The notes beneath the pieces are model-generated. The model was not told the DNA's origin. It searched no databases and saw nothing but the letters and a program-made list of their open reading frames with translations. Shown here one piece after another: positions 9,954 through 61,985 of a stretch of DNA of 64,000 bases. Position 1 is the stretch's first letter; each line of letters begins with the position of its first letter. Source of the DNA: Microcyclospora pomicola (lineage: Eukaryota > Ascomycota > Dothideomycetes > Capnodiales). Location: NCBI GenBank assembly GCA_002786065.1, contig NHNY01000008.1, positions 124,001-188,000 of the forward strand, given 5' to 3'. Position numbers and translations under genes: made by a program.

Positions 9954-10357
9954 GAAATGCTGCTAGAGAAGTTTTGTTGCACACTTAGCGATAGTCTCCT
10001 CAACTTGCAGAGTGTACATTGGTCTGCATGCCGTGTCTACCAGCGCTGGCCCCTAGGAAACAACTTGCTGGTACAGTAAGGCTTGCTCTCGTCCAAGTGC
10101 TGCCACAAAAATGCACACTATCGAATTCGAGGACAGAACAGCATCTTGCAAATGGATGCGCTGTAACTTACTTGACAGCTTATGTTCTGTTGGCGGGCAC
10201 TTAAGCATGTGAAGGACAAACGAAACATATGGGGCACCGTTCACTGGCCGATCGCGGGGTCTAGTCATCGTCATGCCAATCTTTTTGGAGAAATGTCTAG
10301 ACCATCCATTGAGTCAAGCAGTTGTCTGGATTTTACATTAACATACCGCGTCTGAAC
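9954..10357. other. Upstream region of the histidine gene
   Basis: About 400 bp without a supported gene. The long downstream frame is open back to about 10313, but the first in-frame ATG is at 10358. Confidence 0.4.
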
Positions 10358-13012
10358 ATGGCCATGAAGTCTGAACATCTGCCGCCGTTCCTGGCGGCAA
10401 TTGATCTCGGCTCGTACTCTTCCGTCGACAAGATCCTGGCCAACAAAGCGATTGCCTACGCGGGGAGCCTGATTGCATCCGTCACGCCAGAAACGTTCGA
10501 TGCCGCCTTGCAGCTGCTACGAGTCACGGTCGGCCAATACTCGATCTACCTGGAGGTATCGAGACTGAAAGAGCATGACGACATCGTATCGTTGCTGGAT
10601 GCTGGTGCTGCGAAAGTGTTCGTCGCCAGTACACAAGCTGCCAAGCTGCAAGCTACGCCGAACCTAGACTTGAGTCGCATCGTCTGGAGCCCGACAGAGG
10701 AAGCCATAAGCGCCCTAGATGGGACGACCTTTGGTATTTTCCTGCAAAATGTTGGTGATGCCGCTGTTACAAGCGAGATCTTGCATGAGATGGGCAAGAA
10801 CAGACCTCCGGTATATGTTTCGAAGCATCCTTTCAGCGAGGCCGATGCAGTAGAGCTTCGAAGACAAGATGCAGTGCCCGTGATACCCGCGGAGATGCTC
10901 ACTTTGGAAGCCGATGCTGGCCATGAGCATATCCGTGTAGCCTCCTTGTTGCTTGCACAGGCCAAAAGCGATCGGCCGGATGGCTTGTTCACAACCTTGG
11001 TGGTTGACCAGCGAGAGGTGGCCCTCGGACTGGTCTATAGCAACGAAGAAAGTGTAGCTGAGAGTATCCGCGCTGGCCGTGGCGTCTACTTCAGCCGTAA
11101 GCGAGGACTGTGGCGGAAGGGAGATACAAGCGGTGATTGGCAGGAATTGGTTCACATCGACATGGATTGCGACCACGACTGTCTGAGATTTGTTGTCAGG
11201 CAACAAGGACATGGCTTTTGTCACCTGCAAACATCAACCTGCTTCGGCGAATACAGAGGACTGTCGAAGCTACAAAAGACCTTGCAGAGCCGCAAGAAGA
11301 GCGCCCCCGAGGGTAGCTACACGGCACGACTCTTCAATGACTCGAAGATGCTCAATGCAAAGATCATGGAGGAAGCTGCTGAGCTTTGTGAAGCAACAAG
11401 CAAGGAAGACATCGCGGCCGAAGCGGCAGATGTGCTGTATTTCGCACTGACCAAAGCTACGGCTGCCGGAGTTACGCTGGAGGATATCGAGCGCAACCTC
11501 GATGCGAAAAGTGTCAAGATCAAGCGACGAAAAGGTGATGCAAAGGGACCGTACGCGGAAAATTTTGGTGTCCAGAACACACCAGCAACGAACGGCGCAA
11601 CCAAGGAAATGATCAAGGAAGCTGAGTCGCAGCCAAAAAGTAAAGATGATCCTGCCGGTCTCAACAAGGAGGGCAGAATCCAGATGCGACGGTATATAAC
11701 CTCTCAGGAGACTCCCGAAACGATCCGCGAGGTTTTGAAGAGACCCTCGCAACGGTCGACAGAGAAGATTATGGGGATCGTCAACCCAATCGTCAAAGAG
11801 GTACGGGAAGGCGGCGACAAAGCTTTGCTCGGCTACACACACAAGTTCGAAAAGGCAACATCACTATCATCTCCTGTGCTTAAAGCTCCCTTCCCTCCGA
11901 GCTTGATGCAACTTCCACCAGAGACCATCGAGGCGATCGATATCTCATATGAGAACATTTGGAAGTTCCATGCTGCACAGAAAGAAGAGCGGCCGCTGGA
12001 GGTTGAGACCATGCCTGGTGTGGTATGTTCGCGATTCGTCCGCCCAATTGAGCGAGTTGGTCTCTATGTCCCAGGCGGTACTGCTGTTTTGCCCTCCACA
12101 GCACTCATGCTTGGTGTTCCGGCGAAGGTTGCGGGTTGCCAGAAAATTGTGATTGCCTCGCCTCCTCGCGCGGACGGCTCCATCACTCCAGAAATTGTCT
12201 ATGTGGCCCACAAAGTTGGTGCAGAGAGTATCGTGCTTGCGGGAGGTGCGCAGGCTGTTGCCGCTATGGCGTACGGTACGGAGAACGTGAGCAAAGTCGA
12301 TAAGATTCTGGGCCCTGGTAATCAGTTTGTCACGGCAGCTAAGATGCTTGTCAGTAACGACACTAGTGCAAACGTGAGCATCGATATGCCCGCAGGACCT
12401 AGTGAGGTCCTTGTCATCGCAGACAAGTCTGCCAACCCTGCATTCGTTGCTTCGGATCTGTTGTCTCAAGCCGAGCACGGCGTCGATAGCCAAGTCGTCT
12501 GCATTGCCGTCGATCTCAACGCTGAAGAGATGCAAGCTATCGAGGATGAACTGCACAAGCAAGCCATGGCTCTTCCACGCGTGGATATGGTTCGTGGTGC
12601 CATTGAGCATTCCGTCACACTCATCGTGCCATCACTAGAGGAAGCGCTGGCGCTCAGCAACGACTACGCACCGGAACATCTCATCCTCCAGCTCGCACCT
12701 GAATCACTCCTTCCCGCTCGGGATATGGTGCAGAATGCTGGATCGGTCTTCCTGGGCCAGTGGACGCCCGAGAGCGTAGGCGACTACTCTGCTGGTGTGA
12801 ACCACAGTCTCCCGACGTATGGATACGCCAAGCAGTATTCGGGTGTCAATCTCGCTAGTTACGTCAAGCACATCACGAGCTCGAGCTTGACGGCGCAAGG
12901 TTTGAAGAACGTGGGCAAGGCGGTCATGCAGTTGGCCAAGGTCGAGGAGCTTGATGCCCATAGACGAGCTGTCGAGATCAGGTTGGACTATATGACGAAG
13001 AACGGGTTGTAG
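10358..13012 (+). CDS. HIS4: Trifunctional histidine biosynthesis enzyme (HisI-HisE-HisD)
   Basis: Single exon, 884 residues from the ATG at 10358 (a second ATG follows two codons later). Phosphoribosyl-AMP cyclohydrolase is at about 205-290 (GLVYSNEESVAESI, DCDHDCLRFVVRQQGHGFCH, holding the metal-binding Asp/Cys ligands). Phosphoribosyl-ATP pyrophosphohydrolase is at about 305-390 (NAKIMEEAAELCEA, AADVLYFAL). Histidinol dehydrogenase is at about 445-884 (GLYVPGGTAVLPSTALMLGV, DMPAGPSEVLVIAD, QAEHGVDSQV, ending NHSLPTYGYAKQYSGVN). It catalyses steps 2, 3 and the last two oxidations (9 and 10) of histidine synthesis. The fusion order and length match yeast HIS4 and Neurospora his-3. Expected cytosolic. 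No frameshift or missing domain is seen. Its promoter probably lies in 9954-10357. Confidence 0.97.
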   Translation: MAMKSEHLPPFLAAIDLGSYSSVDKILANKAIAYAGSLIASVTPETFDAALQLLRVTVGQYSIYLEVSRLKEHDDIVSLLDAGAAKVFVASTQAAKLQATPNLDLSRIVWSPTEEAISALDGTTFGIFLQNVGDAAVTSEILHEMGKNRPPVYVSKHPFSEADAVELRRQDAVPVIPAEMLTLEADAGHEHIRVASLLLAQAKSDRPDGLFTTLVVDQREVALGLVYSNEESVAESIRAGRGVYFSRKRGLWRKGDTSGDWQELVHIDMDCDHDCLRFVVRQQGHGFCHLQTSTCFGEYRGLSKLQKTLQSRKKSAPEGSYTARLFNDSKMLNAKIMEEAAELCEATSKEDIAAEAADVLYFALTKATAAGVTLEDIERNLDAKSVKIKRRKGDAKGPYAENFGVQNTPATNGATKEMIKEAESQPKSKDDPAGLNKEGRIQMRRYITSQETPETIREVLKRPSQRSTEKIMGIVNPIVKEVREGGDKALLGYTHKFEKATSLSSPVLKAPFPPSLMQLPPETIEAIDISYENIWKFHAAQKEERPLEVETMPGVVCSRFVRPIERVGLYVPGGTAVLPSTALMLGVPAKVAGCQKIVIASPPRADGSITPEIVYVAHKVGAESIVLAGGAQAVAAMAYGTENVSKVDKILGPGNQFVTAAKMLVSNDTSANVSIDMPAGPSEVLVIADKSANPAFVASDLLSQAEHGVDSQVVCIAVDLNAEEMQAIEDELHKQAMALPRVDMVRGAIEHSVTLIVPSLEEALALSNDYAPEHLILQLAPESLLPARDMVQNAGSVFLGQWTPESVGDYSAGVNHSLPTYGYAKQYSGVNLASYVKHITSSSLTAQGLKNVGKAVMQLAKVEELDAHRRAVEIRLDYMTKNGL

Positions 13013-23236: not shown

Positions 23237-25492
23237 TCACACCTCCCCGCCTGAACGTGCACGACTACCCGTCCGACTGCGGGCGAGACGAATGCGGCCA
23301 TCGTCTTCTTCCGCCTGCCCCGTGGCGTCGCCAGGTAACAAGACGGCCTTATCGATCGCGACGGGGAGGCCGCGATGGCGGCCGCGCAGCATGACGGCAC
23401 ACAGGATCAGCTTGCTGAGGGCGTGCCAGCTGCCGCAGAAGCTGTAAGCGGCCGAGGGCAGGCCGACGGAGATGCCAACGCACCCGTATGCGGAGACGAT
23501 CTCGAAGAGGAAATTGAACGCGCTGAAGACGGTGGGGTTGTCCTCGAACTGCGACGATTCGATGATCAGGATGAGGAAGAGTGCCAGCACGATCGTCCAT
23601 GCGTCATGGGCGAGTTGGGCACGGAGCTGCTGGCGGACGAAATGGGAGTTAGAGGCGTCGGTTGGGGGAGAGCGAGAGAAGTGATCGCGAATGGTGCGAG
23701 CGCGGTGGAAGATGCCGCGAGAGTTCTGTGACGCTGCCGAAGCACCGGCATGGCCTGGAGTGTTGTTGGTCTGGGTATCAATTTCAGTAGGTTCGTCCTC
23801 GGAGTAAATACCCAGCGATCGCTCCTCGTACACATTGGAGTTGCGCATTGTGATCACGACGGGATAGACGCTGATGTACATCATGACGACGTAGAGGACC
23901 TGTAGGCTGATGCGTAGTGTCGGTATGCTGACCACATAAAATCCGCCACTCCTGACTGCGAGAGCTTGGAAGAGGCCATCGATGACTCGAGCACCGGTAG
24001 GGAGTGTTTCGGTCAGCTTCTTGTTTCCGATGTTCAGGATTTCGAAGGCCGCCCAGTCGGTGCCGTTCAAAGCTACGACGGTGAGAAGCAGCCACCATGT
24101 GTGTTGTGCCGGGAACAGATTTGTGTAGCAACGTCGTGGATGATCAAGCAGGAATCGCAACGTCTGTGCACGTTCTTTCCACTCCTCTCCTTTCATGACA
24201 CTCAATATCTTCCACAGACTCCAAACAATCAAGCGCAAGAAAATTGGATAGCAAGTATTACCCGCCAGAATGAGGATGCCCATGGTCAGCAAAAGATAAT
24301 ATCCTGTCTGAAAAGCTGTCATATTGGCGTCCAGTAGACTCATTCCCGAGTTGTTGAAAGCTGAGACCGCGTTGAATGCACCAACCCACCACGGGTTCAG
24401 ACCGTTGACTTTGGCAGCCTCTGGGCGCTGACTTGCAACCCATGCCGCGCATCCCAAACAGCCAAGCAATTGGAACATAACGAAGTACATCGGAACTAGC
24501 CAGGCGAGTAGAGACACGGCACGGTACTCGTATCCACCCAGCTTTTCACGCTCTCGGTCCGACAATCCGTGGAATTGACTGTTCCTGGATACCCAACCTC
24601 CGAAAGCATCGAAATATTTCGCAGCATCCTTATGTTCTGCGGACGAGCTGGGGACTATATCGGTCAATCCATCACCGGAAGAGGGCTCACTCCGCACGCG
24701 TGAGATGGTATGGAGACCGGAATCTGGTCGAGCCCCAACGCCTTGCATGCTTATGAAGCTACCCCGGTGGCGGTGCGACGAGGATGGATGCGAAGGCTCG
24801 AAACGAGTATCTTGACGAAATGTCAGATGATTGGTTTGGTCCGTGCTGATTGACCTGACGTCTGTCTCTGAGGCGAAGACCGCTTTTGCCGTTCCATGGT
24901 CTGCGCTTGTGCCGTTAGTGTTTGCCGAAGAAGATTCTGTGCTGGCATTGATTTCCTTCTCAGTGGTTACTCTGAGCTCGACATCTCGGCCATTGCGGTC
25001 TGTCTTTGGGTTCTCCTGAGACGAAGTGGTTCGGCCTGTCGATCTGTGAAGAGACCAACTGCGATTTCGTGACCCGTTTCTCGACTTCTTCCTTCGTTCC
25101 TCCCGCTCAACGACGACTATTTGGAATCTCTTCTCGAATGCCTGCTTGCGGACGTGTACCACCACAGCGGAGACTAGAATGGCCGATCCCAGCATAATGA
25201 GAGCGAACAGCAAGAACTGTTGGAACGTGTTGATAGCACTCAAGTTGATGGTGTTCAGGCCAGCCAATGTCATTGCCGAGACACAGAAGAACAGCGAGTC
25301 CGTGAAAGTGATGCTTCGAGCAGGAGTTGACGCTCCCCAGAAGATGATGGCGGAGATTAGACATGTTGAAATGAAGTAGATATAATGAATGGTGATGAAG
25401 TTGAGAGGAGGAAGCTGGCGCCGGACGAGGCGAAACGGCTTCTTTGATAGTCCTTTGGGACTTGATAGTGATCGTGACCAACTAGCCGTCAT
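23237..25492 (-). CDS. TRK1: TRK-type potassium transporter
   Basis: Single exon, 751 residues from the ATG at 25492; the frame upstream begins only with TTG. It shows the four membrane-pore-membrane repeats of the TrkH/Trk1 family. The pore-loop regions are at about 68-84 (FCVSAMTLAGLNTINLS), 369-385 (FNAVSAFNNSGMSLLD), 504-519 (FQALAVRSGGFYVV) and 661-676 (FEIVSAYGCVGISVG), each with the selectivity Gly. A 250-residue hydrophilic loop separates repeats 1 and 2, as in yeast Trk1. The conserved end CAVMLRGRHRGLPVAIDKAV is present. It mediates high-affinity K+ uptake at the plasma membrane. The last exon part (about 23330-23500) is markedly GC-rich. No breaks are seen. Confidence 0.96.
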   Translation of the reverse strand: MTASWSRSLSSPKGLSKKPFRLVRRQLPPLNFITIHYIYFISTCLISAIIFWGASTPARSITFTDSLFFCVSAMTLAGLNTINLSAINTFQQFLLFALIMLGSAILVSAVVVHVRKQAFEKRFQIVVVEREERRKKSRNGSRNRSWSLHRSTGRTTSSQENPKTDRNGRDVELRVTTEKEINASTESSSANTNGTSADHGTAKAVFASETDVRSISTDQTNHLTFRQDTRFEPSHPSSSHRHRGSFISMQGVGARPDSGLHTISRVRSEPSSGDGLTDIVPSSSAEHKDAAKYFDAFGGWVSRNSQFHGLSDREREKLGGYEYRAVSLLAWLVPMYFVMFQLLGCLGCAAWVASQRPEAAKVNGLNPWWVGAFNAVSAFNNSGMSLLDANMTAFQTGYYLLLTMGILILAGNTCYPIFLRLIVWSLWKILSVMKGEEWKERAQTLRFLLDHPRRCYTNLFPAQHTWWLLLTVVALNGTDWAAFEILNIGNKKLTETLPTGARVIDGLFQALAVRSGGFYVVSIPTLRISLQVLYVVMMYISVYPVVITMRNSNVYEERSLGIYSEDEPTEIDTQTNNTPGHAGASAASQNSRGIFHRARTIRDHFSRSPPTDASNSHFVRQQLRAQLAHDAWTIVLALFLILIIESSQFEDNPTVFSAFNFLFEIVSAYGCVGISVGLPSAAYSFCGSWHALSKLILCAVMLRGRHRGLPVAIDKAVLLPGDATGQAEEDDGRIRLARSRTGSRARSGGEV

Positions 25493-26263
25493 GGTGGCAC
25501 AGATGATACGGCTGTAACGTCTCCGCAATTATGATAGTGAGTTGAATGGTCTCAGCATGCTTGGCGTTTTAGCTTTCTGATAGAGTACTTTATGAGGAGA
25601 TGTCGAGAAAGTGCCGCCCGTCATCGATGTTCGCGGTTCTGAGTTTTACATTCTGCATCCTGACGACCGCACAACATTCAGCTGTCGATCGTGAGAGGTC
25701 TGAGCCCTTGCGATGTAAGCCTGGGCCCAGAAGCCGGATGGTTGAACAAGATCAATGTATCTAAAGTGAAGACGGCTCTCCCCATGCGGTCCGCACAAAC
25801 CTAGCACAAGGCGAAGCTCATCCGCCGATTAGTGCGCGGGGCTGTGCTGTGGCGTTTGTGGCAACGTTACTATGGCTGGAGGTCTCTACGTCAGTCTGTG
25901 ATAGCGGGGCTTCGTCCAGCGCCAATGTTGTAAGAAGCGCCGCATATGTCGGCGGCGAGACGCCATATAACAATCTAGGCGGCAAGGCTCAGGTAGTATT
26001 GGCAGTCAGGCGATCGTATCTACCATCATGCTCATATGAGGTAGATTAATGCGCAGACGCGGCAGCAGATGACGCTCGCATGCATCCCCGCTGTGCCGCA
26101 TCTATCATCTCGCCAAGCAATCAAGCAACAAGCAAGTTCTAGATCAACTCCTTCTTATATATCTGCCTGCCACAGCTCTCCACACTTGCTTGCTAACTCC
26201 TTTTATCCAATCACCTCGTTGTCACCTTCTCATTCTCCTTCACCACCTTCTTCAAATCCAACG
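25493..26263. other. Divergent promoter of TRK1 and the spartin-like gene
   Basis: About 770 bp. A TATATAT element at 26155-26162 lies about 100 bp upstream of the ATG at 26264, followed by a CT/CA-rich leader. No gene is supported here. Confidence 0.5.
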
Positions 26264-39300: not shown

Positions 39301-41990
39301 GATGGAGGAGTGGGCGGTCGAACGAGGCGCAACGTGCAGTGTTGCGCAAGGAGGTGGAAGGCTGGAAGGATGCGCGGACCGCGATGATCAGTCGGTGAGG
39401 TCGTCGTGTCGGTGGGCCGAGCGTCGTCCGGCGCGCGCGCGGTGTGAGTCGTGCACGCGGGGCGACAGTGGACGAGGCAGCACGATGGTCGTCAGGTCAG
39501 CGACCAGTGCCGGCGACGCGGTGGACGCAGATATGGGGGTGGGGGGAGGAAGTCCAGGGCGGATCGACAGAGTGGAATGGGGGAGGAGGAGGGTGGGTGC
39601 CAGGCGTCCGGTCGCACGATGGGCACTAGGTCGGGCAGTTCCTTAGCACGGGAGTTTCGGTTGTACGCAGCTCGCTGAGGCGGCGGCGTCGGACGGGCGG
39701 TGCTGGATGAACGGTGTCAAGGGCACTATTCTTCTTGCTGGCACGCAGTCGACGACGACGACGGGATCATGCTGTCGGATGTGGAGGAGGGCGGAGAGAT
39801 GAGGTCGAGGAGATGCAGTGGTCGGCGGGTGGGATCATCGAGCCCTCCAGACGCATCCCAGAGGCCGCGGTCAACCAATTCATTTGTCAACGTTGCTGGG
39901 CAGCCAATCACGGCCGACGGTGCCTTGCACATCACCTTTATCGATTACGGATCTTCACTTGGACGCAGGTGGTCTGCCTACCTTATTATGGTTATGTGGA
40001 TGATCATTGTCGTTGATATAAAAGACCGGCGAGACGATCAACACCGCTATGTAAGAGATGTCGCCGTTCTTCGACCACAGCTAAACGCAGCGTTTCGGTT
40101 GTTGCTGCCCGAGTCCTGCTGACATGTCACAAGCAATAATGTCCATCTCAGGACTTGTTTCCGGGACGTTTGGTCGGGTACCCAGAAAACACATAACGAT
40201 CGTCGATGCCCGCCGATCGAAGAAGCATGTGACAGAAACATCATTGCATTTCACTTGAGTTGAAGAGGTAGCTTCACCGCTTACCTGATATTTCGTGTGT
40301 TGTTGGGCTTCGTAGGTGGTGTTGCTGGTTCAACTTTCATCATCAGCCGAACGTGCAAGCTTGCTGTTCGGGCCATTCCCGCCGCCAAAGACAGCTTCAA
40401 GGTCTCGAAATACACTGTTTGGAACGTAAGGACGTGGGTGACTATTGCATAGCCTGGGCTTTCCGCTTCGTAGATACATGGCAGGGTCATGTACCCGTCT
40501 GATGCCTGGGCTGGAAGGGAATCACCGATCAGCGTATCTATGCTCTGCTAAGACCGACTCGTATTACGGCTTCATCCCTGGAAACATGGAAGTCCTTGGC
40601 GCAGCTTGATGCACCGACCAGACAATGCTTCCGTTCCAAAGATGCTTGGTCGCCGGCCATCATCTCGCTCTACCACATACAGCGTTTGTAACCGTAGGTA
40701 GTTACCCTCGCTGCGTGTTGCCACGACGAGAGAGAGAGAGAAATTAGTCGAGCGTGCTTCAATGACCCAGAGCCTCTCACTCTTGCACCAACCTCCCCAC
40801 CTTTCTTCCTCAACCCCTTTGAGTAACCTCAGGCCAGCAGGTTTATTCTGTTTGGGCCATCACATCCGGTATGCGACTGCTGAGGATGTAAGGCTCACCG
40901 AGACACAACGTGGCAGCTCTCCCGCAGGTAGTGGCAATCGCAAAAGTCTGATGCTAAAGTGATTGCATGTCAGACGTTGCCTCAAGGGACAACGCGAGCA
41001 GCCTTGCCGGAGATCTCGAAAAGTATTCGAAGCGCTTGGTACTGGATTGCCTCTGCACGCTTGGTGATGATGTGCTGAGAGACGTGGTGCATCTTGTTCT
41101 GGATCTAGAATCCCCGGACGTCGATATCACTGCGGTACAGTATGCCTACCCCCATAACCACCATCAGCATACTACGCTTGCAACGATCCCTAGGACCACA
41201 GGCTTGCACGGCCACGTATACTCTATACAGCTGTCCAAGCTCGGCATCACTGCGGCGAAGCACATCGACCCTAGCCGCATCTTAAATGAGCAACAAGACA
41301 CTAGGGTAGGTCTTCTGAGCTGATGCATCGTGATACATTGCACTTACTGGCGAGAATAGCAGACTCCAGCCGAGACTGTGAGGAGAAATGTCTGAAGTCT
41401 GAGAGAGAGCTGATCATACCGCGCTCAGCCGCCTGGAATGGAAGTGCGTGCGTGACCCAGAAGTCACAAGAGCCTGCGCAATCCCGTCATTCACATCGTG
41501 CAGTCAATGTAGACTTGCGCTCGCGCTCATATATCAGAAGCATGTTGAATATCAACTTCATTGAGATGAAGTCGGCAGCGGCAGGGCTAAGTTTAGTTAC
41601 TGGGCGGAGCGATCGACCGTGTGCCTTTCGCGCTCAGGCACTCACGCCACCACCGCTATCGATCTGTACCCTCGATTGCATCACATGCCAGCCCGCGTTG
41701 CAGACCTCACCTCAAATTCTCACGCTCTCGCGCAGCCTTGCCCCCGTAGCCTGGCAAGCCTTGCGCGTCGCACGACTTATGCGGATGTGGCGCTTTGTGA
41801 GATAATGATTGGGATCAACTTTGCGGCCGTGGATGGGACATAGTCTGCGGCGCAGAGGATACAAGAGCAGACCCCGACCATCGATACAGATGCGTCGAAG
41901 ATAATACGTGCCGCCTACGATACCTTTCCAAACGGCCCGGCCTCAACGTGCTGTGCTCCAGCTTGCACAGTCAACCGACCTCCACCCATC
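39301..41990. other. 2.7-kb divergent intergenic region
   Basis: The largest gene-poor stretch, between the divergent SomA-like and Uls1-like genes. The 39300-39680 part is GC-rich and is probably the SomA leader. A (GA)n run of about 14 nt sits at 40728-40741, and a CCAAT box near 39904. Open frames at 40967-41323 and 41323-41805 (plus) have no domain, and no splice partner was found. Long regulatory regions are common for developmental regulators such as SomA. Confidence 0.5.
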
Positions 41991-44900
41991 ATGTCTACAC
42001 TTGCCTTACCGCCGACCATGACGGCGCAAGATCTTGATGATGAGCTGCTGTTCCAGGATGTGCTCTTGTCGACCCTTGATAGAGGCGCCGACGACTACCG
42101 CGAACGCCGCGAAGAAATCGAGGAGAATATGCAAGAGCTGAGACGTCGTCTCGGTCTTCTGGCGACGACCGCGCCCTCATCCAGCCAAAGACTAGCGTCG
42201 CAAGACGATACCAACTTCGCAAGCACTATGGGTAACTTTGGCAACCCTGACTTCGTGGGGAACGCGCTTAGCAATGGACACTCCAGAGGTCAGGACGACC
42301 TTGACGGTGCTGCGTTGGGCAGTATGTCTTACTCAAGTACCGGAAAGAAGCGGGGATATCCAGGCAGTCTTGCACACGATCCGTTCGATCGCACAAGGAA
42401 ACGATTGACACCCGACCCAACCCTCTCAAGTCCACCCTCTTCACCGCTGGAATCGTTCAACCTGGCCGAGCCACCGGGTATGAGTGCGACGGCAAGAGCT
42501 CATCAAAGACACAAAGAGGTCGAACAACGCATCAAGCGACAGAAGGAAGACGAGGCTATGGCTCGCAGTCTGCAGGAGCGCATGTCAAACAGTTCCTTCA
42601 GATCGTCACAGGCAGGGCCATCGTCACGGCCACATATACAGACCACGATCGGTGCTTCAGGGCACATCCGAAGGCCAACACTGCCCCCACCCGTGAAGCC
42701 GGAACCTTACACCAACTCGATCCCGCATGGCTTTCGCCCTCCGTCAATTCCTCGACACAGTAGTTCTTCAGCAAATACGCCTGGCGCGATCGTACAGCCT
42801 GCTAGCATCAAGTCTGAGCATCCGAAGAGAACGCCAGGATGGACAGGACAGAACAGCTCGTCGCAGCAGTTCCGCAACACTGGCATGATCGATCTCACAG
42901 CTAGTGACAGCGAGGATGATTTTGCCGAGATTCCACCAACCGGTTTCACTCCAAGTCATCGTGCTCCGAAGCCCGCCCCTGTACAGAGCTCCCAGCTTCC
43001 ATCATACACTATGCCCGGCTCCTATCCAATTTTCGATGATCTGATGAATCCTACATATGGAGGATACGATATTGCTAATGGATGGACTGGTCAGATGCCT
43101 GGTCGTGCGACTTACGATTCGCATACTCAGCAACCTCTGTCCGACCGACTGGATGGGGTCTCGATGCTGTTGGGCGACATAGGTTCTGTACCCCCCACTT
43201 ATGAACAAGCGATCTCGATGTCACACTCGCCATACAACAGCTACACGTCCAGGGTGCCTAAAGTCAGACCTGTTGGGTCGAACATGCCATCATCGTTTGA
43301 TCATTACGGCGCTCTTCGTTCTAACGGTCCTTCACAGTCGAGGCATCCCAGTTCTAGCTCGCGCCCCGCACCAGACATTTTTGGCTTGGGTTCGCTTCTT
43401 GGCGGTTATGGGACGAATGAGCAGCCTTTCGATCTGGTCGGCGACGACGACGATGATGATGACGAGCTCTGGTCAGGTCTCCGCACTGGCATGTATGCTG
43501 GCAAGGAGGATCTTTACCGCAATCGATACGACGCCATCGCAAATTATGATCCACAGCAGACGAAGGAAGAGATCAATGCACTTCTCAACAATATCAGACC
43601 AGATGAGGATATGCCTGCCCACTTACGGGTGCAGACGCCGCCAGGAATGGCTGTCCAGCTCCACAAATACCAAGAGCTCGGATTGACGTGGCTCAAGAAA
43701 TGTGAAGAGGGCTCCAATCAAGGAGGCATTCTTGCCGACGATATGGGTCTTGGTAAGACTATACAGATGCTGTCGCTGATTGTCAGCAACCGGTCTGATG
43801 ATCCGAGCTGCCGGCAAACACTGGTCGTCGCTCCAGTAGCACTAATGCGACAATGGAAGTCCGAGATCATGACCAAAATCAAGCCCGGTTCACATGCTTT
43901 GAAGGTGTTCACCCACCATGGGTCACAGAAGAAGAGCAGTTTCGCAGGTTTTCAACAGTACGACGTCGTGCTGACCACCTTCGGCAGTCTTGCATCGGAG
44001 TTGAAGAAGCTGGAAGCTTTCAAGCTTCGGCAACAGCACGACCCCGATGCCAGGCCAGATCCCAGGAAAGAAAAGTGCGTGCTTCTGGCACAGGAAGCCA
44101 AATGGTTCCGTGTCATCCTCGACGAGGCACAATGCATCAAGAACAAGAATACCCAGACTGCCAAAGCTGCTCGCATGCTCAATGCGAGGTATCGCTTTTG
44201 TATGACCGGCACGCCGATGATGAACAACGTTGAAGAGCTGTATTCTCTCATCGCTTTCCTTCGCATGAAGCCGTACTCATCATGGGAGAAGTTCCGTATG
44301 GACTTCTCCGTACCTCTGAAAAGCTCTATTGATGTCACGAAGGATAACGCCATGCAGAAATTTCAGGCGGTGTGCAAGGCTATCATGTTGCGTCGTACGA
44401 AGAAGAGCACGTTTGAAGGCAAGCCCATTCTGATTCTGCCCGAGCGCTCCACCGAAGTCAACAATCCCGTCTTTAGCGAGGACGAGAAGAACTTTTACGA
44501 CTCGCTGGAAGGCAAGACACAGCTGCAATTCAATAAGTATCTCAAGGCTGGGAGCGTCGGCAGATCCTACTCCGCTATCTTGGTGCTACTCTTGCGCCTT
44601 CGTCAAGCTTGCTGTCATCCCCACCTGATCAAGGACTTTGGCGTGTCGGCCACTGCAGATGTGACGCCAGAAACCATGGTCGAGTTGGCCCGCGGACTGG
44701 AAGAGCAAGTCGTCTTCCGGATCAAGCAGAAAGACGGCATGTTCGACTGCCCAGTGTGTTACGATGCAACGACTAACCCCGCGATCTTCATCCCTTGTGG
44801 TCATGATAGCTGCGCGGACTGCTTCGCACGGCTCACCGACCCGACAATGGCTATTGCTGCGGGTAATGAAGATGGTGCGGCACAAGCGAAATGTCCTGAA

Positions 44901-45977
44901 TGTCGTGGGCCCGTCAATCCCAAGCGGATCACCGACTTCCATTCGTTCAAGAAAGTGCACCAGCGGGAGAAAATGCGTGCAGAAGAGTTAGCTGCCGAAG
45001 AGGGCGCTCCGGGGGAGGATGATGACGACAGTGGTAGCGATACTGACAGCGATAGTGATGACGATGATGATGACAAAAACGACCAAGGGGATCTGAGAGA
45101 TTTCATTGTTGATGACGACACGATTGAATTTGAGGATGATAGCAAACGCACAAAGGGCAAAAAGGTCAAAACAGAGGAAGTGGATGAGGTCGAAGAAGCG
45201 GAAGAGGCCAAAGAGGCCAAAGAGGACGATATAGATGGTGTCGCCGGTCCATCAACAAAGCCCACAATATCGAAGCGCAAATCGAAAAAGGGCAAAGCGA
45301 AGCGAAAACCCAAAGAGACCTTGGCAGAGCTCAAGAAGGCTGCTGGACGCAGTGCCAAAGCCAAGAAAGCCTACCTCCGACGACTCCGGCGCAACTGGGT
45401 GTCCTCGGCGAAGATCGACAAGACGCTGGAACTGTTGAGCGGCATCATGGAAAACACGGACGAGAAAGTTCTAATCTTCAGCCAATGGACGTCATTGCTC
45501 GATCTTCTCGAGGTGCCCATCGATCGCGAAGGATGGGGCTACCGCCGCTACGACGGCAGCATGAACGCGCAGGCGCGCGGCGACGCGGTCGAAGACTTCG
45601 GCAGCACGAAGCACAACGTGCGCATCATGCTGCTATCCCTCAAGGCGGGCAACGCCGGCCTCAACCTCACCACCGCCAGCCAGGTCATCATCCTCGACCC
45701 CTTCTGGAACCCGTACATCGAGGAACAGGCCATCGACCGCGCGCACCGCATCGGCCAGACGCGCGAGGTCAAGGTGCACCGCGTGCTCGTCCAGGACACG
45801 GTCGAGGACCGCATCATCGCGCTGCAGGAAAAGAAGCGCGCCCTCATCAGCACCGCCCTCGACGAAAAGGCCGCCCAGGGTATCGCGCGTCTGGGTGTCC
45901 AGGAACTCGCCTACCTGTTCGGCATCACCTCGAATCCCCAGCAGCACGTCCAGTACGTCGCACAGAACGCACGTTAG
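41991..45977 (+). CDS. ULS1: Uls1-like SNF2 ATPase with RING finger
   Basis: Single exon, 1328 residues. The N-terminal 540 residues are disordered and contain a SUMO-interaction motif followed by acidic residues (MIDLTASDSEDDF, about 297-309) and a PPTYEQA motif (about 401). SNF2 ATPase motifs: Walker A ILADDMGLGKT at about 580-590, DEAQCIKN at about 709, TGTPMMNN. A C3HC4 RING is inserted at about 920-985 (FDCPVCYDATTNPAIF, CGHDSC, AKCPECRGP). Acidic and Lys-rich linkers follow, then the C-terminal helicase half (KVLIFSQWTSLLDLLEV, LLSLKAGNAGLNLTTASQV, DRAHRIGQTREVKVHRV). A RING inside SNF2 plus SIMs defines Uls1/Rad5-type proteins; the lack of a HIRAN domain favours Uls1, a SUMO-targeted ubiquitin ligase/translocase acting on SUMOylated chromatin proteins. 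The last 420 bp are unusually GC-rich. Confidence 0.9.
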   Translation: MSTLALPPTMTAQDLDDELLFQDVLLSTLDRGADDYRERREEIEENMQELRRRLGLLATTAPSSSQRLASQDDTNFASTMGNFGNPDFVGNALSNGHSRGQDDLDGAALGSMSYSSTGKKRGYPGSLAHDPFDRTRKRLTPDPTLSSPPSSPLESFNLAEPPGMSATARAHQRHKEVEQRIKRQKEDEAMARSLQERMSNSSFRSSQAGPSSRPHIQTTIGASGHIRRPTLPPPVKPEPYTNSIPHGFRPPSIPRHSSSSANTPGAIVQPASIKSEHPKRTPGWTGQNSSSQQFRNTGMIDLTASDSEDDFAEIPPTGFTPSHRAPKPAPVQSSQLPSYTMPGSYPIFDDLMNPTYGGYDIANGWTGQMPGRATYDSHTQQPLSDRLDGVSMLLGDIGSVPPTYEQAISMSHSPYNSYTSRVPKVRPVGSNMPSSFDHYGALRSNGPSQSRHPSSSSRPAPDIFGLGSLLGGYGTNEQPFDLVGDDDDDDDELWSGLRTGMYAGKEDLYRNRYDAIANYDPQQTKEEINALLNNIRPDEDMPAHLRVQTPPGMAVQLHKYQELGLTWLKKCEEGSNQGGILADDMGLGKTIQMLSLIVSNRSDDPSCRQTLVVAPVALMRQWKSEIMTKIKPGSHALKVFTHHGSQKKSSFAGFQQYDVVLTTFGSLASELKKLEAFKLRQQHDPDARPDPRKEKCVLLAQEAKWFRVILDEAQCIKNKNTQTAKAARMLNARYRFCMTGTPMMNNVEELYSLIAFLRMKPYSSWEKFRMDFSVPLKSSIDVTKDNAMQKFQAVCKAIMLRRTKKSTFEGKPILILPERSTEVNNPVFSEDEKNFYDSLEGKTQLQFNKYLKAGSVGRSYSAILVLLLRLRQACCHPHLIKDFGVSATADVTPETMVELARGLEEQVVFRIKQKDGMFDCPVCYDATTNPAIFIPCGHDSCADCFARLTDPTMAIAAGNEDGAAQAKCPECRGPVNPKRITDFHSFKKVHQREKMRAEELAAEEGAPGEDDDDSGSDTDSDSDDDDDDKNDQGDLRDFIVDDDTIEFEDDSKRTKGKKVKTEEVDEVEEAEEAKEAKEDDIDGVAGPSTKPTISKRKSKKGKAKRKPKETLAELKKAAGRSAKAKKAYLRRLRRNWVSSAKIDKTLELLSGIMENTDEKVLIFSQWTSLLDLLEVPIDREGWGYRRYDGSMNAQARGDAVEDFGSTKHNVRIMLLSLKAGNAGLNLTTASQVIILDPFWNPYIEEQAIDRAHRIGQTREVKVHRVLVQDTVEDRIIALQEKKRALISTALDEKAAQGIARLGVQELAYLFGITSNPQQHVQYVAQNAR

Positions 45978-46777: not shown

Positions 46778-49700
46778 TCACCGATGAATCAGTTTGTTCA
46801 GCCGACGAATCTCCGTCCAGCGACTCAGCGCGCCGAGCTCGAAGAGGTTCATGCGCCGCATCTTGCCCGACGGGTTCCCGATGATGACGGGCTTCCAGTC
46901 CGGATCGTCGGCGCCGGGGCCCCAGACGATCTTGGTGGGGTGGGGTCCAGTAGTAGCCGCTACGGCGGGTGAATCGATCTCGGCGCCGAACGCGTTGTTG
47001 GGCACGACTTGCACCTGCCGGAAGCGCCACATGACCACCATGAGGCCCAGGGTCAGCACGAGCAGGACGGCGGCGACAATCGAGTTGCCGATCTGCGCGC
47101 CCACGGCGCGTGTGATGTCGCCGGAGACGCCGGTGGCGGCGGCTGCGAGGAAGAAGCCGAGGGACTGCGCGGCGAAGAAGCCGGCGCAGACGCGCGGGAA
47201 CGAGGAGTAGTTGGTGCGGCGGCGTCGGGTGGTCTCGGCCATGGAGTTGAGGCGGTGTCGTTGGTTGACGCCTGGCTGGAGGTCGCAGGTGTCGAAGTTC
47301 TCCATGATCAGGCCGATACATTCCGCCATGGCAAGGTTGGAGAGGAAGCCGACGAGACCGGCGAAGATGGTGGGCGCCGTCCATGAAACGGTACGTCCGA
47401 CCGAGCAGAGCGTGTATGCGAGACTCGCAAAGGGGAGCGCGAGCGTGAAGAGGCAGCGGCGGACTAGGTGAGAGGACCAGGTTAGACTTTGTGTGCGCAT
47501 CGTCATGCTGTCGGTTCGGGCGGGTTTGACACGAGCGCGGCTGAAGATGGAGGCCTTGGCGAGTGGCATTGCCAGAGCAGCGCCGACCGCAAGCGCCAGG
47601 ACTGCAAACCCGACATACTGCGGCTCCTAGTCGTAGTCGCGAGACAGCAGGGCACCAAGAAACTGCGTGTTCAAGTTAGCGTCTGGTGCAATGATAGAAA
47701 GTGCGAATCGAAATTTACCAAAATGACCATAGTCACCTGAGCATATATCCAAGCAATATACAACATCAGGACGAAGAACCCGGTCTGGAACACCATACGC
47801 TTGGTGAGGATGAGGCCAGCCCAGACCTCTTCAAACCACCATCTGGGTCCATCGTTGGAGATGTGAAGTTTGACCTCACCTCGGGCCACTCTGCGTTGTG
47901 GTTTCTCCTCGTCATCCAGAAAGTGTGCAATGGACCTTCGGTATGGCGCTCGCCTTGTCTCGGGCGCAATGACATTGACCAGCAGGAAGAAGGCGAGAAG
48001 CATGACGATGATGTAGAAGCCCCAAGCAGGATCGAGCTTCGAGATCACGCAGGCGCCCACACAGAAACCAATGGACAGTGAACCGATGAAGCACCACGAC
48101 CACACTCCCAACCAGATCCCGACCCCACCACCTTGACGTCGGACATCGTCGTGAACAACGATCTCTTGATGAGGATTGTCATGCATAAGCGAAACGCCGA
48201 ACAAATCGAACAGGGTCGGCAGTTGATTGATATTGGCGAAGCCCATCGCCAGACCGGTCATGATTCGTGGGATCAGCAGGCCAGCACGATACAACGGGTT
48301 CTCTGGATTTCGCTGATTGGTGACCGCCACCGCTTGTGGGAATTGTAAAGGAAGCATCAGAGCAAAGGCCATCAGTGTGTATGGCTTACGACCATGCAGT
48401 AGTGGTAGTGGCCAAAAGATGAGGGTGGTGATCCCTAGTCCAACGAAAAGTCTACATCTGTCAGCACTGATCAATGTCTTCGACTGTGAAACACCCTACA
48501 GCACATTCCCAAGGATGACTTTGTGTGAAACATCGGCGATTTGATATTGGATCCTGGGTACTTCACCCGCCTGAATAATGTCAGTCAGGGTACAAGTGGT
48601 CGTGTAGAAAGCTGCTCACGTATATGCCGGCTATCAATCCAATGAAGATAGTATTGAAGCACGCAATGATCGCCGCGATCCTTTTGCGCAGTGTCTTCCA
48701 CTCCCTCGCGATCGGCTGCCGTCTGTGATATCGTCCGAGACTGAACCCTTGACCTTCGCGCAGGCTGATGTGATTCCTACGAGGATGCTTTAAGCTCAAG
48801 TCCGTAGTCGGGATGATATGCGCCTTGGATGCACTAACCTCACGAACTTAATATCCGACTGAGGCAATGGGCGAGATGGATCATGGTCATACCTCGTGTC
48901 TGAGACTGTAGAACCCTTTCTCGGTGGGTCGCCGGATGCCTCGTGCTTATGGGAGGGGAAGTGATAGTAGGATGGTTCGAAAAATTCTGCTACGTGTGGG
49001 CTTCTGCGCTTCCTGGCTTTGCTGTGATCGTCGGCTCGACGCTCAGAATTCGAACTATCATGGCGTCGGACCGGAACGACTGTTGTAGGTTCAGGCTCGA
49101 GCGTTCGTAACCGACCTTTGTCGATGGTATTCAATCCGTTGCTCCGCAGTTTCTTACCATGAGAATCGCTGGTGATCGCTCGAGAGGTATATGGCAATTG
49201 CGGTAGGTGTTTATTGAGCTCCACAGGAGCAGCAATGCTGAGCCTGATTCCCGGCTGAGTCATAACAGATTGGCCCAGATCACCATAGTATTCTGCTGCA
49301 GCACCAAGTTTTGGCGCTGAGCGCATTGCTTCTGCAGCATCAATCTTGCTAGGCCAGGCACTTGAGTACGCAAAATCGCGTACGATGGAGTCTGCTGATG
49401 GTGATTGGTAAAGCTGTGGTGGCGTGGGCTTGATGGAGATGTCATCTGACATGGGTCGCTGCTTGACCCCCTCAACATAGACGTTCTCAGATGTGGGACG
49501 CCTACCTCTGGACCAGTACTGTTCTGTAACCACAGGTTCAGGACGTGCAATCGTTTTCTGCGTGTAAACTGTGGGTGCAGTATCTGCCGAGCCCTCTCTA
49601 CTCTGGAAAGGCGAAAGATCTTCCGATAAGGTGAGCAAACTCATGTCGCTATCGGAAGAGTCGCTGTCTGGTATGTGCACCGGTGGTCGTGACATGGCCC

Positions 49701-50943
49701 CATTGACTGCGTTTGCTGTCTTGAGTGCCTGACTCGCGCTACCGAATATTTGAGTGACTTCATCTTGGAAGTCGCCGCGAGATGCTTCTCTGGCAGTCGT
49801 AACGGCATCTGCTATGAGCTGCTCGAGGCCATTTACGGCGCTACTTATTCCCTGCCGCTGAGAGCTTCGTGGTGGGACTGTTGGGGGAGGAGGAGCATAT
49901 GACAGCACTTTCGCAGCCTGGTGCATAATGGGCGAAGCATGAGAAGTCTCTTGAGCAGGTTCATGACCTGATCGAGCAACTGAAGCAGGCTCGTATGGCG
50001 TGGCTGAAGATCCGGATGAGCCTACCAGGTGGGTCGGCATTTCGAAAAGCGTCTCCTTACGCTGTATCTTCTGCACCTTGTCTGACATTGACAGGATCGG
50101 TGAGATCGCTTGCGGATGAGTCCCAGCGGCATCTACTTGCTTCTGGTATTTGATGTTAGAATGATGATCTGCAGGAGCTGGACTCTTGAGCATAGCATGC
50201 GAGATGCTGTCGGGCCCATTCGGACGTCGTCTGCGAGCTCGATGAGAAGGCGCATGCGCATGCTCTTTGGAGATGGTGGACTTCATGATTGTCTCGCGAG
50301 GTATCGGCGCTTTCTTAGGTCGTCTCGTAGCTTTACCGGGTGCGACAAACGTTTCTTCCGAGCTGTAATTGGAAGGCGTGTAGTCCGCCAGCTTCTGTTT
50401 GTTTGCCAACGTTTCATCGGCAGCTCGAAGTATTTCTCTTGCGTGCATTCTTGATCGTGGTGGCCTCATCCCAGGGCGCGACTCTGAGGTCAGCGAGAGG
50501 GGTTTCGACTGCCTATGCTATGGGCGATGATGGTAGGTCGGAGAAGACCCAATAGTGCGGAGAGCAATATCTTGACTGGTAGGTAGAATGGAAGGACGTC
50601 TAGCAGCGGGCGCTCCAGCACTCTTGGGTGAGACTGCGGTTGTCTGCAAAGATATGTTCCCGTTGCGGTCGATGATACTATGCACATTGCTCGGCGCATC
50701 TTGCGCGGGTACGGATGTAGCAAGCCGCACAGCCTGTTGCTGGTCGTTGCTATCGAGCCAAGGTAATTTCCGGCGTGTCACACTGGTCAACGCTGCAGGC
50801 ACTTGGGCGATTCGCTGGACTGGCCGAACGTTGGTTGGTGTCGTAGATCCTGCATAACTGCTGCTACGCGACGGCGGAGGCGCGGAGTCATTCGACGATC
50901 CCCTTCCTGCGTCTTGGGCTCCTGCGTCGGTGATTACTGGCAT
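46778..50943 (-). CDS. MFS transporter with long N-terminal tail; frame holds in-frame TAG codons
   Basis: Exons, complement: 46778..47662, 47719..48451, 48500..48570, 48620..48776, 48839..50943. The four introns are 48-62 nt (GTTAGT, GTGAGC, GTAGGG, GTAAAT donors), all frame-consistent. The start at 50943 is the first ATG after an upstream in-frame TAG (51022-51024); the same frame is open from about 51111 apart from that codon. A 650-residue Ser/Pro-rich cytosolic tail precedes twelve membrane segments. TM1 is IAAIIACFNTIFIGLIAGIY; the family GRK loop is LLHGRKPYTLMAFALML; APETRRAPYRRS follows TM6. TAG codons at 50518-50520 (tail) and 47627-47629 (after ALLSRDYD, within the membrane core) interrupt an otherwise intact frame. 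The gene may be a young pseudogene, be spliced differently, or be recoded. Transport substrate unknown. Confidence 0.7.
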
Positions 50944-51000
50944 ATCATCCAGAGCGGAAGTTCGTTGCAGCTTCGCGATTCGGCTTCGAAGTAAGGACAA

Positions 51001-51352
51001 GGAGACCGGCCTTGCGTTATTCTAGAAATGGGGCGAATGGAGGTCTGAGGATTCGCTGACTAGCATGCGACTGAAGACGCGCGGGGGAGAGTAAAGCAAA
51101 CGAGCGGGCATGAGGAAGCGAAAGCGAATGAAAGAGGAGAATCGTAAGGGATGCGAGACGATAAGTCTAGAGATGGGGGTGCAAACCAGAGTGAGAAAAT
51201 GCAAGAATGAGGTGTACGTCGAGAGTGTATGTCTCCATGAAAGAAGCAGGTCCGTTCCTGATAGCTTGTTCTGTTGCCATGATGCCTCATGTCTTCGCTC
51301 GATGTACGCAGCTGCCATGGCTGGCGATACATGTATCTTCACGCTGAATGTC
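51001..51352. other. Upstream region of the MFS gene
   Basis: CT-rich on the minus strand, like a leader. The MFS frame continues into it from in-frame ATGs near 51111 and 51066 and is cut by the TAG at 51022-51024. No separate gene is supported. Confidence 0.4.
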
Positions 51353-60365: not shown

Positions 60366-61985
60366 ATGGAAGCAGTCTTCGCAGACTTCGTGCGTGCCCA
60401 TGACTTATCAGACGGGAACTTGCTTGCCACCACCATTTCACCTGTACCGCCACCTTCTGATCCTGCGCGGCTCTACAACTTTCACCGTGCTTCAAACTCT
60501 CATCAAGTTCCTGTCGATCTCAGATACCAGCTGCAATACAATGCTAATCTACAGCATCTCAGCAAGAAGGAAGCTGCAGCCTGGGTCGACGTGTTTGTGG
60601 CTTACTACGGCTTCATAGGCAAATTACTGACCGCCGAAGAGCTACAAAACGCCGGTCAACCGAAAGACGCCGACTGGCTTGCCGTGTATGAAAGCTGGAA
60701 AGATGTATCGAGTACATTGCAGAAAGGCTATAGTAATGCTGGCTTTGCAGCGTGGACCATTCCATGTCTGTATACCGCCGCCAAATATCTCCGCATCTTC
60801 GCCATCAAAGCCGATGTCAAGATTGCCTCTCAACGAGACAGTGGGATGGCGTTTGGTGGCGTTCAAGATGATGAAGTTCTTGACGACAGCAGCAAGAATG
60901 AGAAGCTGGAGGACGCAGCTCGCATGATCAACCGTATATTTGCGTTATGCCTTGGTGATCGGTACGTGGTTGGCACAACACCTGCCTCACCTGTCAATCC
61001 TGAATATCCTCGCTGTGTTCCCTTTCGTCAGTTGCCATCTCTTTGATATGTTCAAGTACTCACAGGTAAGTCTCGCAGCTCTCCACTCGAAGACTCCCGT
61101 AAATGGGCTCTATACTACATGGGCAACATTTTATTCAAGACATATTTCAAACTCAACACCCTCAACCTCTGCAAGAATGTGCTACGTCCTCTGCAAGCCG
61201 CCAACACAGACATGCCGCCTCTCTCCGCTTTTCCGAAATCCCATCAAGTGACATTCAACTTCTATAATGGTGTGCTCAGATTTCTCGAGGAAGACTACAG
61301 CGCTGCTGAGGAATTCCTCGAGGGCGCATACAAAATGTGCTTCGCTGGGAAAGAGGCACAGGGTAATCTGGAAGGCATCCTCATGTATCTCATCCCAACC
61401 AAACTCGTGACTACGCACAGCCTCCCGAGTCTCGACTTGTTGAGACCCTACCCGAACCTTGCACGACTGTTCATGCCGATCCGTTCGGCGATCCTACGAG
61501 CAGATCTTTCCGCCTTCAACACCGCGCTCGAGGAAGGAAACGAGGAGTTCGTCAAGCGGCGAATCTACCTCACCCTTGAACGCGGTCGGGATGTGATACT
61601 GCGCAACATCTTCCGCAAGGTCTTCCTTGCTGGTGGGTTCGAGCCGCTCAAAGAAGGCGAGACCGGTCCACCTCTCAGGCGAACCAGAGTGTCGGTGAAG
61701 GAGTTCGCGGCGGCATTGCAGATGGCTGGCGCTGAGATCGGAGACGGAGAGGGCGGAGTGGATGGCGACGAGGTGGAATGTCTCCTTGCGAACGCAATTT
61801 ACAAGGTAACGACAACCCTTGATAGTGACTGTCCCTACCCTGCGGGTCGTCAGCGTAGCAGTCACCCCTCAACAACGCACCTAAACTAACCACTCCCGCA
61901 GAACTTCATGAAAGGCTACATCGCTCGCGACCGGGGCATCGTGGTGCTGAAGAAAGGCGATGCTTTCCCAGGCACGAGAGTCTGA
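60366..61985 (+). CDS. CSN12: Csn12-type PCI-domain protein
   Basis: join(60366..60961,61079..61805,61902..61985), 468 residues. Intron 1 is 117 nt (GTACGT...CGCAG) and intron 2 is 96 nt (GTAACG, CTAAAC branch, CGCAG); both keep frame. The helical N-terminal part (DLRYQLQYNANLQHLSKKEA) is followed by GDRSPLEDSRKWALYYMGN, YFKLNTLNLCKNVLRPL and the repeat-like HQVTFNFYNGVLRFLEEDYS. A winged-helix PCI end carries YKNFMKGYIARDRGIVVLKK. Csn12 with Thp3 and Sem1 forms a TREX-2-like complex tied to transcription and mRNA processing, and was first found with the COP9 signalosome. Length agrees with the family. Expected nuclear. The ATG at 60366 is chosen because it opens the conserved N-terminus; the frame upstream is leader. 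Confidence 0.92.

Follow-up and report, generated by a model that had tools for sequence, protein, structure and literature searches.

What keeps a gene for a large membrane transporter close to intact when its reading frame is broken by stop codons of a single kind? The question is raised by a locus on the minus strand of a 64,000-nucleotide stretch of Microcyclospora pomicola DNA (the window), which lies on contig C57 of the 23.4 Mb, 58-contig genome analysed here and holds a gene for a transporter of the major facilitator superfamily (MFS). A first-pass annotation had described a frame, starting near position 51111, that is free of frameshifts once four introns are removed and is interrupted by three TAG codons, and had proposed RNA editing as one explanation. 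All three TAGs are found where they had been placed, and four GT-AG introns do yield one frame; two of the TAGs (codons 142 and 1034) interrupt it, whereas the third precedes the start codon. The best reading, to which we give a probability of about 0.64, is that these UAGs are corrected to UGG by sexual-stage adenosine-to-inosine (A-to-I) editing in a Dothideomycete. We infer the editing, its stage, its enzyme and one-to-one orthology to two edited Fusarium genes, AMD1 for the transporter and PUK1 for a kinase introduced below.

The spliced coding sequence, from ATG 50943 to TGA 46780-46778, measures 3951 nt and contains two TAGs and the terminal TGA as its only in-frame stops (Table 1). A frameshift was looked for over its 1316 codons after removal of the four introns, and none was found. 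Because many Teratosphaeriaceae relatives start at the position with which ATG 50943 aligns, the TAG upstream of it most likely belongs to the leader, as the first-pass annotation had allowed. The length is comparable to that of relatives, many of which have 1100-1500 residues, others being shorter models. The family is single-copy in this genome: a query consisting of the core ahead of codon 1034 gave three matches, all at this locus.

Residues and sequence context at the in-frame TAG codons

Codon 1034 falls at a site where the nearest homologues carry tryptophan, the residue that had been guessed for it. Among the 120 homologues of a first search, 106 have a residue there: Trp in 95, Phe in 4, Tyr in 3, Leu in 2, and Met and Cys in one each. 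The other 14 are gapped, nine being models or contigs that end at this point and five (P0016-P0019, P0025) models that skip it. A second search brought 113 new proteins, with Phe in 85, Leu in 8, Tyr in 5, Met in 1 and 14 that the residue pattern did not match, and a third brought 115, mostly from Sordariomycetes and Leotiomycetes, with Leu in 69, Phe in 32, other residues in 14 and Trp in none. Since Trp dominates the first set and Phe or Leu prevails elsewhere, Trp is, by these homologues, the usual Dothideomycete state. A single base change turns TGG into TAG at this site.

The neighbouring bases point in the same direction. Edited sites in F. graminearum are described as preferring C/U, U, A/G, G, A/G and A/G at positions -2, -1 and +1 to +4 (PMC9600606). 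The TAG of codon 1034 stands in C-U-A-G-G-A-G (-2 to +4, its A being position 0) and agrees at all six positions with this motif, which is that of a fungus of another class. Among 424 TGG codons in long frames, drawn from the window and from 200 kb of contig C23, 11 share this six-position context; the two TAG-broken genes, with 31 TGG codons, have it at none.

Codon 142 had been assigned to a disordered tail. It lies in a variable linker between two stretches common to relatives. In RNA folds predicted with flanks of 20, 30 and 40 nt, the A of this TAG always occupies a hairpin loop, the background being 7 of 25 TAG triplets of the MFS mRNA in loops. An intron covering codon 142 was considered and rejected: it would delete a stretch that relatives share, and no good donor was seen.

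Kinship to AMD1 and the gene models of relatives

The closest homologues of the transporter come from Meristemomyces, Friedmanniomyces, Elasticomyces, Hortaea and Baudoinia. In a tree of 27 sequences built from core columns only, the window gene is sister (support 86) to a clade that includes five species of Teratosphaeriaceae (Dothideomycetes): Baudoinia panamericana, Meristemomyces frigidus, Hortaea werneckii, Teratosphaeria nubilosa and Friedmanniomyces endolithicus. Because of this position, the source fungus is, on the evidence of the gene tree, in or adjoining that family. Two long pieces of the window gene gave no Pfam match at 0.001; MFS_1 matches the homologue P0001 and four of five Fusarium members, all five matches lying under the curated cut-off.

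AMD1 of F. graminearum (FGRRES_10094) is described as a 1386-residue MFS protein with a printed MFS range of 618-840. Its UAG, at nucleotides 631-633 (codon 211) and inside a wrongly predicted intron, is reported to have become UGG, through editing, in 97.6% of the transcripts from perithecia; an uneditable allele failed to rescue ascospore discharge, and orthologues are called 'well conserved' in Dothideomycetes (PMC5496914). Fusarium members of the present family were reached through a Leotiomycete bridge query, and they align to the core of the window gene with no gaps at site 1034. One of them, P0316 from F. pseudograminearum, has 1314 residues, 72 short of AMD1's 1386, and its model has a gap after residue 155 compared with other Fusarium models; 72 residues missing at that gap would include codon 211. 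No record named for F. graminearum is among the matches listed, so these Fusarium members are putative counterparts of AMD1.

The window gene thus resembles AMD1 in belonging to the same long MFS family, as far as the Fusarium members can be aligned, and in having an intact frame broken by UAG, with gene predictors dodging the stop through a false intron. It differs in where the stops lie: at codon 211, within the N-terminal region, in Fusarium, and at codons 142 and 1034 here. Fusarium also represents another class, one in which the editing has been observed.

The gene model of B. panamericana (P0019) joins VTLVIL to KPQYVG and so drops exactly LLGALLSRDYxW. If the Baudoinia intron is in phase 0, like that of the window gene, the codon at its Trp site must end in AG. 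A TAG there, one change away from TGG, would explain why the predictor bypassed the normal acceptor, and the model suggests a TAG at the same codon in this species. In F. graminearum, false introns of this kind are reported to have concealed edited UAGs in 69 genes (PMC4817773). The T. nubilosa model (P0025) skips a wider stretch that includes site 1034. Three H. werneckii models (P0016-P0018) also omit a broad region that contains the Trp site, but other Hortaea models retain the region with Trp, so skipping alone is no proof of a TAG.

The Baudoinia junction could instead be taken at face value. The TAG of codon 1034 would then act as a 3' splice site, and intron 4, being in phase 0, would lengthen in frame by 36 nt, with 12 residues skipped. 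Such alternative splicing is very improbable. The skipped stretch (here FLGALLSRDYD) is kept in 106 of the 111 homologues that span the site and in all 115 proteins of the third set, the regular acceptor stands close behind a CTAAC site, and both codon 142 and the TAG of the kinase gene would be left unexplained.

A second TAG-broken gene and the wider genome

A Pkinase profile run on the genome (125 of 154 candidates scored, stop positions judged by eye) gave 134 matches, 21 of them with stops. Eighteen of these were read, the others being C22:268362, C22:244297 and C9:222606, and 17 proved to have their stops within introns or past an exon edge. The remaining match has the sole stop that interrupts continuous coding sequence, a TAG at C22:159799-159801, inside a Cbk1-like kinase gene with no frameshift over its 1036 codons and an intact DWWSLG motif. 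This TAG is predicted to sit in a stable hairpin loop with flanks of 20 and 30 nt (-18.7 kcal/mol at 30) and in a stem with 40. Other TAGs were rejected as premature stops: both of those in the kinase at C10:659723 are in an intron, and those at C1:578955 and C34:1207221 are intron ends. As the survey yielded a single true TAG, TAG is not a general sense codon. Its reassignment, read-through of the stops or a base-call error has very little to recommend it; errors would have had to fall by chance in members of two gene classes whose editing is known.

The identity of the kinase was judged against yeast CBK1. Of all genes in the genome, a COT1-like one on C58 matches CBK1 best (65 and 64%, with a TGA listed in one of the two rows). 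The C22 kinase follows (46%, 127.2 bits), then a kinase at C2:28587 (46%, 124.0 bits). The latter we take to be of the DBF2 type, and a search of solved structures did not separate it from the C22 kinase. By this ranking, the C22 kinase is a Cbk1-like NDR kinase distinct from COT1. The stk-21 kinase of Neurospora crassa (NCU03242) has been placed in AGC/NDR, its best hit being CBK1 (PMC3591445); Fg01058, which is PUK1, is described as Cbk1-like and unique to filamentous fungi (PMC3245316); and the first description of UAG editing in fungi concerned PUK1 (PMC4817773). The C22 kinase most likely falls in this PUK1/stk-21 class, a placement based on the CBK1 ranking and less firm because the C2 kinase nearly ties with it. 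The likeness to PUK1 would lie in a single in-frame TAG that interrupts a Cbk1-like, non-COT1 kinase; the differences are the position of that TAG, codon 564, and the intact DWWSLG.

Elsewhere on C22, WD40 and kinase matches at C22:243106-244719 and C22:268362-269036 contain 8 TAG, 5 TAG with 2 TAA, and 7 TAG with 4 TAA, and no TGA, a pattern that suggests repeat-induced C-to-T mutation. At the MFS gene the dinucleotide indices are ordinary, and repeat-induced mutation was rejected as a cause. A survey of Cdc20-type WD40 genes (134 of 161 candidates scored) gave 150 matches, nine with stops, and two of these were read: one TAG is the end of an intron, and the other, at C2:155283, is in frame with no visible intron, in a weak, repeat-type WD40 match. 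One DNA methylase match has a TAA in an intron, and two others have no stops.

Ame1 is described as the DUF726 cofactor of Tad2-Tad3 in editing (PMC11087585). The genome holds three DUF726 genes. Two, candidates by sequence for a comparable role, are of the short type and 43% identical to each other, the C56 copy being the more diverged (24.2 vs 29.8% identity to the long one). The Met-Val pair decisive in Ame1 (500-501) could not be placed in these genes by counting back from the catalytic Ser. An extra Ame1 copy has been raised as a possible route to editing in the class of Pyronema (PMC11087585).

Around the transporter, the window has open genes for a three-domain histidine biosynthesis protein (10313-13012), a TrkH-type transporter (23237-25528) and an SNF2/RING helicase (41844-45977). 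A TGA at 61044-61046 separates two long frames of a further neighbour, presumably a gene for a Csn12-like protein, and resembles part of a short intron.

Table 1. Coordinates of the transporter gene, its TAG codons, the kinase gene and the DUF726 genes (C numbers are contigs; other positions are in the window)
Feature	Position	Strand	Remarks
AMD1-family MFS gene	46778..50943	-	1316 codons ahead of terminal TGA, 2 of them TAG
Exon 1	48839..50943	-	N-terminal part; variable, rich in Ser, Pro and charged residues
Intron 1	48777..48838	-	62 nt, GT-AG
Exon 2	48620..48776	-	
Intron 2	48571..48619	-	49 nt, GT-AG
Exon 3	48500..48570	-	
Intron 3	48452..48499	-	48 nt, GT-AG
Exon 4	47719..48451	-	membrane core
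Intron 4	47663..47718	-	56 nt, GT-AG, phase 0
Exon 5	46778..47662	-	second half of membrane core; terminal TGA
TAG codon 1034	47627..47629	-	conserved Trp site, SRDYx-W-xPQYVG; Fusarium editing motif 6/6
TAG codon 142	50518..50520	-	variable linker; Fusarium editing motif 3/6
TAG upstream of start codon	51022..51024	-	probably 5' leader
Cbk1-like kinase gene	C22:158110-161220		ATG 158110, TGA 161218-161220; single exon, 1036 codons, TAG codon 564
DUF726 gene	C10:94274		family of editing cofactor Ame1
DUF726 gene	C23:750923		family of editing cofactor Ame1
DUF726 gene	C56:64063		family of editing cofactor Ame1

Editing weighed against decay

If editing is responsible, the locus would be a single AMD1-family gene for an MFS transporter of the ascus-membrane type, probably silent outside the sexual stage. 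In fruiting bodies the middle A of both in-frame UAGs would be deaminated, giving UIG, which is read as UGG and hence as Trp, so that the full-length transporter would be made only there, as is in print for Fusarium AMD1 and PUK1. A Tad2-Tad3-type deaminase with a DUF726 cofactor would be the likely enzyme. That all the stops are TAG, which the first-pass annotation had pointed out, does hold for the transporter gene; from codon content alone, the chance that each of three premature stops (two in this gene, one in the kinase) would be TAG is about 0.085. This is weak by itself. The case is carried by several lines together: the stop at a Trp site, its fit to the motif, membership of the AMD1 class and probably of the PUK1 class, frames that are otherwise intact, and the Baudoinia model. 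The proposal of editing has thus gained from the kinship to AMD1, the motif fit, the second TAG-broken gene and the Baudoinia model, and has lost from one TAG being probably leader and from the residues facing codon 142.

The chief alternative is recent decay, in a lineage that is losing or has lost sex and in which an AMD1-like transporter and a Cbk1-like kinase gather nonsense mutations while still nearly intact. The Fusarium counterparts act in the sexual stage, so relaxed selection would strike such genes first; an all-TAG set of three is not very unlikely; and codon 142 does not stand at a Trp. We nevertheless consider decay unlikely. The two genes together run through 1316 and 1036 codons without a frameshift or a lost splice site. 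The root-to-tip length of the transporter, 1.027, lies within the 0.92-1.08 of relatives in its clade and thus shows no acceleration, and the gene breaks 1 of 92 otherwise invariant columns before codon 1034 and 1 of 71 after it, where other sequences break 0-5. Decay would also leave the Trp site, the full motif match and the Baudoinia model to chance, and no true stop occurs where SPO22, SPO11 and the MAT alpha box were matched. Signs of a pseudogene (frameshift, broken splice site, faster change) were sought in the transporter gene and none was seen, although a very recent loss would not show; the sequence comparison gives no sign of long decay, and recent decay may nonetheless have begun.

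Several findings weigh against editing. Homologue alignment, which places Trp at codon 1034, does not do so at codon 142, where relatives have Lys, Gln and other residues and no Trp, and this TAG fits only 3 of 6 motif positions (misfits A at -2, C at +2, U at +4). The A of codon 1034 folds into a stem with flanks of 20 and 30 nt and into a loop only with 40. For the kinase, the nearest solved structures, human STK38 and yeast CBK1, have Phe at the TAG position, and the motif is matched only in part. The MFS match of P0316 begins at residue 627, near the printed 618 as it stands and out of register once 72 residues are added. Identity to P0001 falls from 82.6% before codon 1034 to 73.7% after it, and this somewhat lower C-terminal conservation also speaks for decay; the corresponding values are 82.6 and 78.7% for Baudoinia and 81.3 and 74.3% for Neohortaea.

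Other genes of the genome add to this side. The matched stretch of SPO22 has no true premature stop (a listed TAA is intronic), and neither the partial SPO11 match nor seven RhoGAP matches have any stop; the matched stretches of the best Cdc20-type genes are likewise free of true premature stops. The MAT alpha-box match is present and stop-free. A 264-kb coding-score scan for stops inside coding-like frames found no TAG excess among sites that are unsorted and in several cases plainly intronic: 78 sites (34 TGA, 29 TAG, 15 TAA), or 24 under a stricter setting (13 TGA, 6 TAG, 5 TAA), two of these six TAGs being codon 1034 and that of the kinase, whose locus had been added to the scan. Published work places the origin of the Ame1 editing function in Sordariomycetes (PMC11087585), and neither of two fungi from other classes, one Eurotiomycete and one Leotiomycete, was found to have genome-wide editing. 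Finally, all the evidence for editing comes from DNA sequence and gene models.

Taken together, it seems that two genes broken by TAG only, each in or probably in a class edited in Fusarium and both in a genome with three DUF726 genes, hint at editing in a class for which a literature search of titles and abstract openings, with most subscription papers outside its scope, found no report of it. A broader view, possible but on balance doubtful, is that sexual-stage correction of stops operates in Dothideomycetes, perhaps with an origin of its own through a duplicated DUF726 cofactor, and maintains premature UAGs in genes resembling AMD1 and PUK1 in more than one genus of Teratosphaeriaceae. If so, editing of the AMD1 and PUK1 classes would be older than thought, or would have arisen repeatedly on the same genes.

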